In this document: piece after piece, positions 24,108 to 29,174 of the stretch | How positions within the stretch are numbered: the stretch's first letter is position 1 | How the letters are laid out: each line of letters starts with the position of its first letter | From: Candidatus Poribacteria bacterium | Lineage (GTDB): Bacteria > Poribacteria > WGA-4E > WGA-3G | Assembly: GCA_022827625.1 (NCBI GenBank) | Contig: JAJEIE010000025.1 | Coordinates: forward strand, 62,001 to 126,000 | Length of the DNA stretch: 64,000 nucleotides | Reading direction: 5' to 3' | Notes under the pieces: generated by a model | Database searches by the model: none | What the model was told of the DNA's origin: nothing | Seen by the model: only the letters and a program-made list of their open reading frames with translations | Made by a program: the position numbers and the translations under genes

Positions 24108-24911
24108 TCAATCATAATTGCTCGGTCGGTGATCACCAAGCAGCCGTCTCTGTCGAGGATTTGCTTGGGAGAGGATCGATGCATCAAACTGAAATTTATT
24201 CAGATAAGGCGGATATTTCTGTGTAATCATCCGCATGGCATAGTGCACTTGTAAAAGATAACGTGTCTCGTCACTCGTATTGGCAGAGCCACGATGCCAG
24301 ACTTCACTGCGGAAAAGCACTACGTCCCCCGCATTGCACAAGATACTTTCTTCTCCCCGATTATTCCACTCAGCTGCCCCGTTTGGGGAACACCCAGAGA
24401 AGTGACTACCCGGCACAAACTTCGTCGGTCCCAACGTTTCGTACATATCGTTGAGATAATAGTGGGCAGTGGTGATGAAGATCGGGATTTTGACGCGCGG
24501 ATCGGAACGGACATCTGCCGGTAATGAGATTGGGAGCCAATCGGTATGTAATCCCTGATCCGGCCGTCCCGGTCCCGTCAGCCACGAATGCATACCGATA
24601 CAATGACAATCCTCACCGTGCGCCGCCTCGGCGACCTCAATAACGGGTGATTTGTCGAGGAATTCGAGAAACAAAGGGTTGCGATTAAACGAATTGCTGA
24701 TGAGCTTGTGGCGGAATGCGTCGCCATTTTCCGGTGTTTCATCTCGGTCATGAGATTCTGGGATCGCTGGCAATCCATCCATGATGGCACGCAATTCAGC
24801 GATTTCATCGGCATCAAGCACACGGGGAAAATAGACATACCCATCCCTTTCCAATGCCTCAACTTGGCTTTCTAAATCGTTATAGGTGACGAGTGAGAGG
24901 GCTTTCGTCAT
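24108..24911 (-). CDS. Phytanoyl-CoA dioxygenase family protein
   Basis: It is 267 residues from MTKALSLVTYND. AAAGGAGT precedes this ATG, so the longer frame to 24950 is not favoured. Iron ligands are HTD in QGLHTDWLPI and H in SEVWHRGSANTSDETR, whose Arg would bind 2-oxoglutarate. An N-terminal GYVYFPRVLDADEI segment is typical. Substrate unknown. The gene has its own promoter with an embedded palindrome at 24970-24984. Confidence 0.9.
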   Translation of the reverse strand: MTKALSLVTYNDLESQVEALERDGYVYFPRVLDADEIAELRAIMDGLPAIPESHDRDETPENGDAFRHKLISNSFNRNPLFLEFLDKSPVIEVAEAAHGEDCHCIGMHSWLTGPGRPDQGLHTDWLPISLPADVRSDPRVKIPIFITTAHYYLNDMYETLGPTKFVPGSHFSGCSPNGAAEWNNRGEESILCNAGDVVLFRSEVWHRGSANTSDETRYLLQVHYAMRMITQKYPPYLNKFQFDASILSQANPRQRRLLGDHRPSNYD

Positions 24912-24959
24912 CTTCGGTACTCCTTTCGGACGATAGCAGCAGGTCAACATTTATCCGAT

Positions 24960-25056: not shown

Positions 25057-27219
25057 CTATACTGTCTTGAGTTTTCGCCATAGGGTTGTACGACTGATAC
25101 CCAAACGTTGTGCAGCGAGTTGCGGCTTTCCATCAGATTCCTCCAAAACACGTTGGACTAACTCACGTTCCAATGCCGCAAGCGGGTTGCTTTCCCTGAG
25201 TGCTTTCGTAACAATATCGTCCCTCAACGCAATAAGGTCGAGCGGTAGATGTTGCTTTTCAATACTTCCACCCTGACATTTGACGAACGCGTGCTCTATG
25301 ATATTCTCCAACTCTCGTACATTGCCGGGGTAGGTATAATCCATTAAGATTTCAAGGGCATCGGGTAAGATGCGGTGAATAGATTTTTGTGTTTGTTGAC
25401 TGAATTTTTCGATGAAGTGTTCAATGAGGAGCGGGATGTCATCTCGTCTCTCACGGAGTGGTGGCGGCGTAATCGGGACGACGTTGAGCCTGTAGTATAA
25501 ATCCTCTCGGAAACGTCCGGCATCAATTTCTGTTTTTAAGATTCGGTTTGTCGCTGCAATGACGCGGACATCTACTTTTTTTGTCTCCGTCGAACCGACC
25601 ATCTCATATTCACCCTCTTGCAAGACGCGGAGCAACTTTGCTTGTGTTCCGGGACTTAACTCGCCGATTTCATCAAGAAAAAGCGTGCCGCTGTCCGCAG
25701 CTGCGAACCGTCCTTCGCGCGTTGCAATGGCATCCGTAAATGCACCTTTGACATGTCCAAAGAGTTCGCTCTCTAACAAATTATCAACCAAACCAGCGCA
25801 ATTGACGCGGATGAAGGGTTGTTTTGCCCGCTCGCTATTGTCGTGGATTGCCTGGGCGATCGGTTCCTTGCCAGTCCCGCTTTCGCCTTGAATCAGGACA
25901 GTCGTTTTCATGGGGGCGACGAGCTGAATCAACTCGAAAATCTCCTGCATTTTCCGATTTTTCCCGATGAGGTTCCCAAACGAATTGTGTTCCTTCAGTT
26001 TGGCATTGAGTGCCTTTACCTCCGAGAGATCACGGGCGAATCCTTGGATGAATTCCCTCCCGTCGTATGCAATGCGGATCGCGCGAATTTCCAATGGTAA
26101 GCGACTTTTGTTTTTACAGGACAGTTCGGTTTGGAAAGTAATAGGATTCTGTGGGGCGAGTCCTTTGAGTGTTTCGCAGGTGTTTTGAAATTTATCGGGA
26201 TGCATTAGGTCACGCAGCGACAGATTGACGAGTTCTTGATGTGTATAACCCAGCCATGTACAAAAATTTTCGTTTACGGTAACAAAAGCTTCTGTGAGTG
26301 AGGGACAAATGAAAATTGCGTCGTTGGACATCTCAAAAAGCGTGCGGTAGCGTCTGTTGTTTTCGGCGAGTTTGTCTGTCCAATTCCCTTTTTCGATCAG
26401 AATTGAGAGTTGTCCGGCAATAGGTTTCAGTCGTCTGATATGCGCCTCAGAGAATGCTCGGGGTTTTTCACTCGTAAAAAAGACGACCCCAATGGGTTTA
26501 CCCTGCACCTTGAGCGGAAGGGTCAGATTGGAGCGCATCCCTTCCTGGACCATCAATCTCGTCCAGTTTGTCGGTCTTTTTGCGAGAATTTCCTCGAAAT
26601 CGTCAATAATCCGGGCTTCACCTGAATTGAGAATGGGTTCAAGGCTGGACCCCTCGATTTTTGCTGAAAACCCGTTGTCCAGCAAGATTTTTTTGTTGGA
26701 TTTTGTTTTGCACTGCACTAAATTACCGGAAGATGTGTCAATGAGTGCGATGCCTAACCGATTATGGGGTACTATGTTCTGAAGTCCAGCGTGGATGTTC
26801 TCAAAGACTTCATCAAGTGTCTTGCCGAGTTGAATCTGCTCAAGGATTTCATAGATATGATCAGCTTCAACAGTTTGGTTAAAAATAGTATCTTCGAGTC
26901 TATCACGCATTGGTGCTTCAGGAGTGACTGCGATCTGAAGGGTATCTCCCTTAAGCCGGAGCGGATAGGTTCGGACATTCGGCGTGGTAATGGGACATCC
27001 ACTTTTCAGATCATATTGCCAACCGTGCCACGGACAGGTAACAACTTCACCCTCCAGTGTTCCTTCGTTGAGTGGCCCTCCCAGATGTGGACAGGCATTA
27101 TTGATAGCATAAAATCTTTTACCCGTGTTGAAGATTGCGATGCTTTTATTGTCTAATTTGATGACGATATTTTGTCCTGACTCAATTTCAGATGTTTGGG
27201 CGATGCTAATCCACTTCAC
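25057..27219 (-). CDS. Rieske-GAF-PAS sigma54-dependent activator with Fis-type HTH
   Basis: This is a 720-residue protein starting at GTG 27219, with GGAGG 9 nt before it. Domains in order: a Rieske-type [2Fe-2S] ferredoxin domain with C43-P-H45 and C62-P-W-H65; GAF (about 115-275); PAS (about 290-405); sigma54 AAA+ (about 415-655) with Walker A GESGTGKE, the sigma54-contact loop GAFTDA and Walker B TLFLDEIGE; then a Fis helix-turn-helix ending ISRTTLWRKLKTV. Such activators remodel sigma54 polymerase. The iron-sulfur domain suggests sensing of redox state, oxygen or NO, and the GAF/PAS a small ligand. I do not recognise this fusion as a named family. It is divergent from a sigma54 promoter at 27525. 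Confidence 0.9.
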   Translation of the reverse strand: MKWISIAQTSEIESGQNIVIKLDNKSIAIFNTGKRFYAINNACPHLGGPLNEGTLEGEVVTCPWHGWQYDLKSGCPITTPNVRTYPLRLKGDTLQIAVTPEAPMRDRLEDTIFNQTVEADHIYEILEQIQLGKTLDEVFENIHAGLQNIVPHNRLGIALIDTSSGNLVQCKTKSNKKILLDNGFSAKIEGSSLEPILNSGEARIIDDFEEILAKRPTNWTRLMVQEGMRSNLTLPLKVQGKPIGVVFFTSEKPRAFSEAHIRRLKPIAGQLSILIEKGNWTDKLAENNRRYRTLFEMSNDAIFICPSLTEAFVTVNENFCTWLGYTHQELVNLSLRDLMHPDKFQNTCETLKGLAPQNPITFQTELSCKNKSRLPLEIRAIRIAYDGREFIQGFARDLSEVKALNAKLKEHNSFGNLIGKNRKMQEIFELIQLVAPMKTTVLIQGESGTGKEPIAQAIHDNSERAKQPFIRVNCAGLVDNLLESELFGHVKGAFTDAIATREGRFAAADSGTLFLDEIGELSPGTQAKLLRVLQEGEYEMVGSTETKKVDVRVIAATNRILKTEIDAGRFREDLYYRLNVVPITPPPLRERRDDIPLLIEHFIEKFSQQTQKSIHRILPDALEILMDYTYPGNVRELENIIEHAFVKCQGGSIEKQHLPLDLIALRDDIVTKALRESNPLAALERELVQRVLEESDGKPQLAAQRLGISRTTLWRKLKTV

Positions 27220-27300: not shown

Positions 27301-27332
27301 TTTCATAAATGAAATTCGTTTCATTTATGAAA
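27301..27332. promoter_or_regulatory. Paired palindromic sites, candidate enhancer for sigma54 activator
   Basis: TTTCATAAATGAAA (27301-27314) and its exact reverse complement TTTCATTTATGAAA (27319-27332) are separated by TTCG. Each arm is itself nearly palindromic, so this is two adjacent dimer sites 18 bp apart centre to centre. They lie about 190-225 bp upstream of the sigma54 promoter, a usual enhancer distance. Confidence 0.65.
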
Positions 27333-27371
27333 TAAGCCTTCATTTTTTAACACTTACGCACTCCGCTGGTA

Positions 27372-27392
27372 GGTGTGGTTTGTAACCGCACC
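27372..27392. repeat. Inverted repeat in the sigma54 intergenic region
   Basis: GGTGTGGTT at 27372-27380 and AACCGCACC at 27384-27392 form 9-bp arms with one mismatch around TGT. It may be a dispersed hairpin element or a binding site; I cannot decide. Confidence 0.5.
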
Positions 27393-27434
27393 GGGCCCGT
27401 GATAGTAACCCTTTATACTGTCCGAAGATAGGCG

Positions 27435-27473
27435 TTTCAATTTTGAAATACGTAGGCAAAATCTGAAATTTCA
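27435..27473. promoter_or_regulatory. Further TTTCA/TGAAA palindromes near sigma54 promoter
   Basis: TTTCAATTTTGAAA at 27435-27448 resembles the two sites at 27301, and TGAAATTTCA at 27464-27473 is a perfect 10-bp palindrome of the same half-site. They are about 50-90 bp upstream of the sigma54 -24 box and could bind the same activator. Confidence 0.5.
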
Positions 27474-27524
27474 TTTTAGCCCGTAAAACGCTGATATATC
27501 TCAATTGGACAGATGCTGAACATT

Positions 27525-27540
27525 TGGCATGAAATTTGCA
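27525..27540 (+). promoter_or_regulatory. Sigma54 (-24/-12) promoter
   Basis: TGGCATGAAATTTGCA fits the RpoN consensus TGGCAyr-N4-TTGCw. The invariant GG (27526-27527) and GC (27538-27539) are separated by exactly 10 bp. The start site would be near 27551, 47 nt before the ATG of the M24-fold gene. It lies across the intergenic region from the sigma54 activator. Confidence 0.85.
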
Positions 27541-27597
27541 ATACTATGCTTTAATACGACCAGAGCAAGGTAACTATCCTAACAGGAGGAAATTACG

Positions 27598-28716
27598 ATG
27601 GTAAATAGAAAGAGGATTCAGAAAGCGCAGGACAGGATGAAGCAGCAAGGGATTGATGCCTATCTCATTCTGACGCACGACGATTATATCTACTTTTTCG
27701 GAGAGGATCGGTATCAACCGCGCGCCATTATCCCCGCACACGGGGTGCCAATTGTTGTCACTTTTGCTGGAGAAGAGGCAGAGGTTAAAGAATCATTGGG
27801 GGTCGAAGATGTCCGGATTTTCGGCTCTGTCGGTCAACAGATTAAGGACGTTGTTCAGGTGATGCGTGGTATGATAGGAGATAAGGAGAAACTCAAAATT
27901 GGGGTCCAGATGTGGTTCGGCACCCCTGCCTTCCTATTGAACATGTTCCAAAGAGCGAATCCGATTGTTGATGTCATGGACATCGCCCCGGTTATGGATG
28001 TCCTCCGTATGGTGAAAGATCACGCCGAGATAGCACTCATGCAGCGTGCCGCAGAAATTGCTGGCATCGGCATGGAGACGGCAGTCAAAACGCTTAGACC
28101 GGGTATAACGGAAAATGAGGTCGCAGCGGAAGTTGAGTACGCTATGCGGAAAGCCGGTGGACATGGTGTTGCAACGCCTGTGTTTGTGAATTCGGGAGTC
28201 CGTTCGGGATGGCTACACGGCACTGCTTCTGACAAAGTTATTGAGACGGGGGACCTGGTCGTGCTGGATTTGGTGCCGCGGTATAAAGGGTATTGCGCAA
28301 ATCTCTGTCGGACATTTGTGATTGGGACACCGACAGCGAAACAGATGGATATGTTCGAGACCTATAAAAGTGCCCAAGCCGCAGGGATCGCAGCGTTGAG
28401 ACCTGGGAGGAAGATGCGAGATATTGACGCAGCGGCAAAGAAAGTTTACACTGAAAACGGTTATGGTGAATTCTACGTCGCGGGGATCAGTCATAGCATC
28501 GGACTTAGTTTTGAGGAGACACCGGCACCAACGATCCATCCCGGTGATTCTGGTATCCAGATTTCTGACGGAATGACGGTGACCATCGGACATCCCGTAC
28601 TTTCTGTTCCGGGAACGGGAGGCGTGCGCTTGGAGGATACTTTCCATATTTCGGGGAGCGTTGCGAAGCCGTTGACGGCTTTCCCTGCCGAATTAGAATT
28701 GCCACTCGGATCGTGA
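27598..28716 (+). CDS. Creatinase/M24-fold hydrolase with altered metal site
   Basis: This 372-residue protein has an N-terminal creatinase-like domain (about 1-135) and a C-terminal pita-bread domain. Of the five M24 metal ligands, D224 (VVLDL), H299 (ISHSIG) and E346 (GVRLEDT) are present. N235 replaces the second Asp (ANLCRTF), and the Glu of the TIEP motif is replaced (TIGHP, about 331-332). It is therefore probably not an ordinary Xaa-Pro aminopeptidase; it may be a creatinase-like C-N hydrolase or another derivative. AGGAGGA precedes the ATG, and it is first in the sigma54-driven unit. Confidence 0.85.
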   Translation: MVNRKRIQKAQDRMKQQGIDAYLILTHDDYIYFFGEDRYQPRAIIPAHGVPIVVTFAGEEAEVKESLGVEDVRIFGSVGQQIKDVVQVMRGMIGDKEKLKIGVQMWFGTPAFLLNMFQRANPIVDVMDIAPVMDVLRMVKDHAEIALMQRAAEIAGIGMETAVKTLRPGITENEVAAEVEYAMRKAGGHGVATPVFVNSGVRSGWLHGTASDKVIETGDLVVLDLVPRYKGYCANLCRTFVIGTPTAKQMDMFETYKSAQAAGIAALRPGRKMRDIDAAAKKVYTENGYGEFYVAGISHSIGLSFEETPAPTIHPGDSGIQISDGMTVTIGHPVLSVPGTGGVRLEDTFHISGSVAKPLTAFPAELELPLGS

Positions 28717-28763
28717 TAGTACCTAAACCACTATAACTCTCAATTTTTCAGGAGGACTCAGAA

Positions 28764-29174
28764 ATGAGCCGTTATCTTGAACACGCCAATATGACCGTGA
28801 ACGACCTTGAAAAAGCGATCGATTTTCTAACAACTGCCTTTCCAGATTTTCGAGTCAGAGGCGGTGGCGATAATGCGAACGGAACGAAATGGTGTCATCT
28901 TGGGACTGACGATTTTTACATTGCATTGTCAGACCGCGAGCATCCCTTCACAGGGGACCGTAAGGGTACCTATGTGAACCATCTCGGTTTTGCTGTTGAT
29001 GACGCTGAAGGTATCAGAGAACGCTTGTTGGCTGCTGGATATAAGGAAGGTTTTAAAGTTGAACCGCATCCTTACCGAAAACGCCTCTATTTCATTGATG
29101 CAGACGGCTTTGAATGGGAGTTCGTCGAATACTTCACGGAGGATCCAGCGAAGCGGAACGATTATTCACAATAA
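28764..29174 (+). CDS. VOC-family (glyoxalase/dioxygenase-fold) protein
   Basis: This 136-residue protein consists of two beta-alpha-beta-beta-beta modules. Possible metal ligands are H7 in YLEHANMTV, H in VNHLGFAVDD and E in EWEFVEYF. VOC proteins include glyoxalase I, epimerases, extradiol dioxygenases and resistance proteins. AGGAGG lies 8 nt before the ATG. It is 47 nt after the M24-fold gene and likely co-transcribed from the sigma54 promoter, so it probably acts on the same substrate series. A strong bidirectional terminator follows. Confidence 0.85.
   Translation: MSRYLEHANMTVNDLEKAIDFLTTAFPDFRVRGGGDNANGTKWCHLGTDDFYIALSDREHPFTGDRKGTYVNHLGFAVDDAEGIRERLLAAGYKEGFKVEPHPYRKRLYFIDADGFEWEFVEYFTEDPAKRNDYSQ

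Follow-up and report, generated by a model that had tools for sequence, protein, structure and literature searches.

What becomes of an M24 enzyme whose peptidase metal site has departed from the canonical form, and does such an enzyme form an inducible pathway with the VOC protein encoded behind it? These questions are raised by a locus in a 64 kb stretch of DNA from Candidatus Poribacteria (hereafter the window), the features of which are collected in Table 1. The VOC gene does lie downstream of the M24 gene on the same strand, with a gap of 47 bp, as a first-pass annotation of the sequence had described; that annotation regarded the metal site as broken and the two genes as one unit under sigma54 control.

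Table 1. Features of the locus, with positions in the window
Feature	Position	Strand	Basis
PhyH-type dioxygenase gene, adjoining the activator in most relatives	24108..24950	-	Pfam, synteny
Rieske-GAF-PAS-AAA(sigma54)-Fis activator gene, divergent	25057..27219	-	Pfam, motif table
Upstream-activator palindrome 1, TTTCATAAATGAAA	27301-27314	no strand	pattern search; conserved in relatives
Upstream-activator palindrome 2, TTTCATTTATGAAA	27319-27332	no strand	pattern search
Insertion of ~110 bp between palindromes and promoter	27336..27445		dispersed-repeat relative
Sigma54 -24/-12 promoter, TGGCATGAAATTTGCA	27525-27540	+	TGGCAY-N5-TTGCW match
M24-fold enzyme gene, H/E-exchanged clade	27598..28716	+	Pfam, ligand columns, tree, model
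M24 residue set in the window: H207, D224, N235, H299, E306, H332, E346
VOC protein gene	28764..29174	+	Pfam Glyoxalase, 45 bits

Active-site residues of the M24 protein

The M24 product of 372 residues belongs to the M24 superfamily according to Pfam (Peptidase_M24, 187 bits against a cut-off of 23, E 4.8e-55) and also carries a Creatinase_N match (41 bits, E 3.2e-10). The closest relatives are Candidatus Poribacteria. The M24 protein has the LHG/PHG and GGVR(L/I)ED motifs in common with M24B prolidases (P. furiosus 1pv9, P. horikoshii 1wy2 and Bacillus 3q6d), as well as fold and length, and differs from them in the second Asp, the fourth Glu and the substrate His. For a dipeptidase from P. 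horikoshii, PMC2814137 gives D215, D226, H290, E319 and E333 as five conserved active-site residues, and His198 as corresponding to His79 of methionine aminopeptidase. The five-ligand set of M24B prolidases and PepQ (D, D, H, E, E) is departed from in the window protein at N235 and H332. Alignment places D224, N235, H299, E346 and the TIGHP motif (residues 329-333) where the first-pass annotation had read them; TIGHP, with its inserted GH, stands where TIEP is canonical.

The residues were compared across a family alignment of 39 rows drawn from Poribacteria, Chloroflexota, Nitrospirota, Acidobacteriota and Bacteroidota, of which 36 are distinct records and three repeat a record already present (L025 was excluded from the counts for its frame breaks, and L003 because its ORF was wrong), and against 15 other M24 rows, which include only some of the Bacillota loci. 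H27, D28, R38, Q40, P41, R42, Q104, H207, H299, F305, E306 and E307 are invariant in 39/39 family rows, and H332 and E346 in all 37 rows that reach them. Position 332 is Glu in 15/15 of the other M24 rows versus His in the 37 family rows, while position 306, which we take to be equivalent to His178 of MAP, is His in 14 of the 15 versus Glu throughout the family. Asp is found at 235 in all 15 comparison rows; Asn replaces it in 33 of the 39 family rows, and in the remaining six (four distinct Dehalococcoidia sequences) it is position 224 that differs, being Gly or Thr, with Asp235 kept. Every family row thus has one of the two Asp residues and has lost the other. Once a one-residue insertion is counted, a detail overlooked earlier, His332 aligns with the absent canonical Glu. 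A group defined here by E306 and G331-H332 together with H207, H299 and E346, the H/E-exchanged clade, includes the window protein and forms one side of a tree branch (support 91/78, in 93% of bootstrap trees; the second copies L078, L205 and L215 were left out of the tree). In the literature searched, no prior description of this residue set as that of a group was found; the fold itself is known.

The "broken metal site" of the first-pass annotation thus stands as a departure from the canonical prolidase site and finds no support as simple breakage, since His332 (37/37) and Glu306 (39/39) fill the exchanged positions; that the lost ligands might be supplied nearby, which the annotation had named as what would overturn it, is largely what the alignment gives. 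To judge from these columns, the site has been rewired, and its ligand residues seem exchanged rather than lost. The dinuclear DDHEE peptidase site would have lost one Asp, usually the second (Asn235), exchanged its fourth-ligand Glu for His332 and the neighbouring substrate-binding His for Glu306, and kept H207, H299 and E346. A decaying pseudoenzyme caught in passing might be suspected from the patchy distribution of the gene (15/84 genomes of the phylum, E 1e-60) and from a shortened copy in genome G068, but the gene is under purifying selection (dN/dS 0.05-0.16) and invariant residues are numerous in 19 sequences of five phyla, which makes decay very improbable.

Metal binding and relation to known M24 enzymes

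The AlphaFold model of the M24 protein (pLDDT 90.4) finds its best structural match in a protein from P. furiosus (9kw9/9kwa; Z 42.1, rmsd 1.5 Å over 345 residues, 29% identity), followed by prolidases (Z about 37-40), creatinase (Z 36.8-37.1) and EutD (Z 36.0-37.5), the last two over ~350-360 residues. The P. furiosus protein joins the H/E-exchanged clade with support 100/97, on a branch that the tree marks as long. It is like the window protein in fold and in Asn235, His299, Glu306, His332 and Glu346, and unlike it in having Val for Asp224 and in missing the N-terminal HDD...R...QPR motif. The ligand set is not fixed, because residue 224 is Gly or Thr in the four Dehalococcoidia sequences and Val in Pyrococcus. 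In the PDB the protein is annotated as a proline dipeptidase, and, by their entry titles, 9kw9 and 9kwa are complexes with Co and Mn. The literature searches returned no paper on 9KW9, none since 2022 combining prolidase, Thermococcus, creatinase and metal, and, in looser form, nothing on a protein of the clade or on the Rieske-type activator described below.

Creatinase and EutD/DoeA are metal-free. A metal-free hydrolase of their kind, with acid-base residues at the ligand positions, would account for the two changed ligands, and the model superposes on creatinase (1chm, 7yto) and EutD/DoeA (6twk), which have the same pita-bread fold and a non-peptidase-type site; R38 and R42, invariant in 39/39 rows and presumably comparable to Arg64 of creatinase, could bind a carboxylate. 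However, identity to these enzymes is just 18-20%, with the H/E-exchanged clade nearer to prolidases, and the NCBIfam scores lie far under their cut-offs (DoeA_2, 136.5 against 575; eutD, 64 against 613; DddP, the DMSP lyase, 51.5 against 600). A metal-free, creatinase-like enzyme is not favoured, because the P. furiosus relative, the best match in structure and sequence, has most of the residues and is titled as a Co and Mn complex, and we consider it unlikely.

An ordinary prolidase or aminopeptidase in which the ligand changes are tolerated would be in line with PepQ and YpdF-like proteins as the nearest canonical families and with the fold match to prolidases (Z about 38-40). Against it, the NCBIfam model PepQ_Arch gives 186.3 bits where its cut-off is 630, substitutions of both the fourth-ligand Glu and the substrate His run through the whole clade with one Asp always lost, and M24 genes with canonical sites are already present elsewhere in the genome; such an enzyme is quite improbable here.

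By a modest preference, the reading that we adopt overall is a metal-using M24 variant, not a prolidase, which has captured a sigma54 promoter that is probably redox-regulated. In such a variant metal would most likely still be bound, probably as a single ion with H299, H332, E346 and residue 224 or 235 as its ligands, while Glu306 and H207 may handle the substrate; the substrate might be a small C-N or carboxylate compound, hydrolysed or otherwise cleaved, rather than an Xaa-Pro peptide. A more specific proposal, offered tentatively, is that the cross-phylum clade has a mononuclear site of two His and one carboxylate (H299, H332, E346), derived from a His/Glu exchange across the pocket that also made Glu306 a new acid/base; this could be a new pita-bread chemistry, perhaps a redox reaction and not a hydrolysis, and in Poribacteria transcription of the gene would depend on an iron-sulfur (Rieske) activator of sigma54.

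Sigma54 promoter, Rieske-type activator and the conserved unit

The promoter TGGCATGAAATTTGCA is the sole TGGCAY-N5-TTGCW match in the 64 kb window (0.18 expected) and ends 57 bp upstream of the M24 gene. Two perfect TTTCATNNATGAAA palindromes occupy 27301-27332 (0.00 expected), and the pair is unique in the genome of 5.02 Mb even with up to 3 mismatches. Since RpoN is encoded in the genome, the sequence features of a sigma54 unit (promoter, RpoN, cognate activator and upstream sites) are all present, and the promoter, palindromes, RpoN and activator domains together support the earlier proposal of sigma54 control by the divergent activator. Elements related to the insertion downstream of the palindromes occur at 16 places in the genome including this one, mostly partial, and a similar insert is found in L149.

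Among gaps in which the activator adjoins a VOC or M24 gene, a -24/-12 site is present in 19/19, the window included, and a perfect palindrome in 14, with degenerate forms alone in the other five. Where the activator is missing upstream of VOC, none of the 5 usable regions contains the promoter; L168 (145 bp) and L170 (42 bp) were too short and were left out. Therefore, the promoter belongs to the activator-VOC pair.

The activator is similar to those of the NifA/NorR kind in its AAA domain, Walker motifs, GAFTGA-type loop, Fis HTH and paired palindromic upstream sites, and differs from them in an N-terminal Rieske [2Fe-2S] domain, which is lost in three relatives. In the window activator the Rieske motif is intact (CPH, 43-45; CPWH, 62-65), and the sigma54 loop at 492 reads GAFTDA. 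The same loop is found in all genus-level activators, with GAFTGA or GAYTGA in more distant ones. Across the 26 activators aligned, the window's among them, the CxH/CxxH motif is intact in 22; the Rieske domain is missing in L005, L169 and L156, and the motif is lost in L173. In L005 and L169 the loss is an in-frame deletion directly after the first three codons. Rieske-domain proteins are encoded next to the activator or close by in more distant Poribacteria, and in L157 so is an FMN reductase, which is consistent with an oxidative-metabolism regulon. Near the distant homologues in L157 (3918-5762) and L171 (192-2039), proteins of ~615 aa combine an N-terminal Rieske domain with ~500 residues that have no Pfam match.

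Bound to the twin TTTCAT-ATGAAA palindromes, and answering a redox or ligand signal, the activator would turn on M24. The literature searched contained no paper combining Rieske and bEBP and no description of a Rieske-type sigma54 activator as a sensor type. At 1e-40 the activator was found in 0/396 genomes of the Acidobacteria phylum (searched for L024) and 0/395 of the Nitrospirae phylum (for L018), both weak negatives with at most four candidates per genome scored and no positive control.

Three candidate metal residues of the VOC product (136 aa), H7, H73 and E119, are unchanged across the 20 aligned sequences, which makes this protein a probable metal enzyme with a substrate of its own. 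At genus level the gene order is PhyH - activator - VOC, with PhyH beside the activator at 16/18 loci and VOC on the opposite side at 17/18 (the incomplete locus L162/L039 was left out). The PhyH gene probably has its own promoter; its gap contains no -24/-12 match, and a TTGACA hexamer was read there by eye.

The co-occurrence check that the first-pass annotation had proposed was run in 84 genomes of the phylum, where VOC is found in 32 (E 1e-15) and the activator was counted in 25, that is, 33 genomes with matches minus eight with short or Rieske-only ones. It bears out an association between activator and VOC (OR 36, p 9e-10) and none between M24 and VOC (OR 0.53, Fisher p 0.39) or between M24 and activator (OR 0.53, p 0.54). 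The proposal of an inducible pathway in which M24 and VOC would catalyse two steps in the breakdown of a C-N or carboxylate compound has on its side the shared strand, the short spacing and the single sigma54 promoter. It fails to find support in these counts: VOC occurs with the activator but without M24 in most genomes, VOC was found in 0/12 non-poribacterial M24 genomes (a set without a positive control), and the M24 segment arrived recently, as set out below. Such a pathway is a remote prospect. What is conserved as a unit is VOC together with the divergently oriented Rieske-GAF-PAS-sigma54 activator, and M24-VOC is no inherited pair.

Recent arrival of the M24 gene

Three of the 84 genomes (that of the window, G055 and G056) have M24 in the slot from promoter to VOC, and G068 retains a remnant. 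In G068 (L039/L162), a deletion joins activator residues 389-720 to M24 residues 291-372 and leaves VOC intact. The other 12 Poribacteria that carry M24 have no activator or VOC in the flanks available (mostly ~6 kb, less for some), and of 25 other M24 loci, in the remaining Poribacteria and outside the phylum, 24 lack any -24/-12 match in a 400-bp range, the one exception having its match at -361. The sequence of the locus agrees with that of VOC-only loci as far as the promoter and then once more at the VOC ribosome-binding site, and the M24 gene was inserted recently between these two points.

Between the window and G056, dS of M24 is 0.091, far below that of the flanking genes (activator 0.453, VOC 0.444, DUF6785 0.478, GH32 0.603, a 464-aa membrane protein 0.610 and PhyH 0.711), yet M24 dS to L006 is 1.25, so its synonymous sites are not slow in general; the segment of promoter and M24 has therefore moved recently by recombination. 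Over the stretch of roughly 27450-28950, DNA identity is ~0.92-0.99; outside it, values are mostly 0.74-0.93, with the flanks at about 88%. Homologous recombination of the segment between strains after their divergence is the simplest account.

The slot between sigma54 promoter and VOC is occupied in G065 and G071 (L142:3659-4048, L143) by a cupin gene, as by M24 in the window. The cupin was considered as the true partner of M24, a 24-residue remnant also following M24 in G082, and was dropped, the cupin family being present in 43/84 genomes.

Around 26 M24 loci (L005-L030), no cluster of neighbour genes is common to more than four, and no pathway emerged when 20 neighbours, and another 20 from Chloroflexota, Acidobacteriota and related loci, were scanned with Pfam. 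In the Dehalococcoidia loci L026, L027 and L028 the order is sucC-M24-sucD, with M24 between the subunit genes of a succinyl-CoA-ligase-like enzyme; sucC and sucD were identified in L026, and L029 has a sucC-like but no sucD-like gene. An isocitrate/isopropylmalate dehydrogenase gene lies downstream of M24 in L024. As a clue to carboxylate metabolism these neighbours are suggestive and too thin to use.

It can be seen that an enzyme gene from elsewhere can settle behind a dedicated sigma54 promoter; M24 slipped behind the promoter of an unrelated gene, so operon neighbours are no guide to its pathway here. With one putative binding site in the genome and natural Rieske-less versions, the activator offers a clean system for the question of whether an iron-sulfur ferredoxin fold gates sigma54 transcription. 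Members of the M24 clade are likely labelled as prolidases, a name that the P. furiosus relative carries in the PDB; the His/Glu exchange is a simple sequence test that separates the clade from prolidases, and, as Co and Mn structures (9kw9/9kwa) already exist, the metal question can be checked at once.
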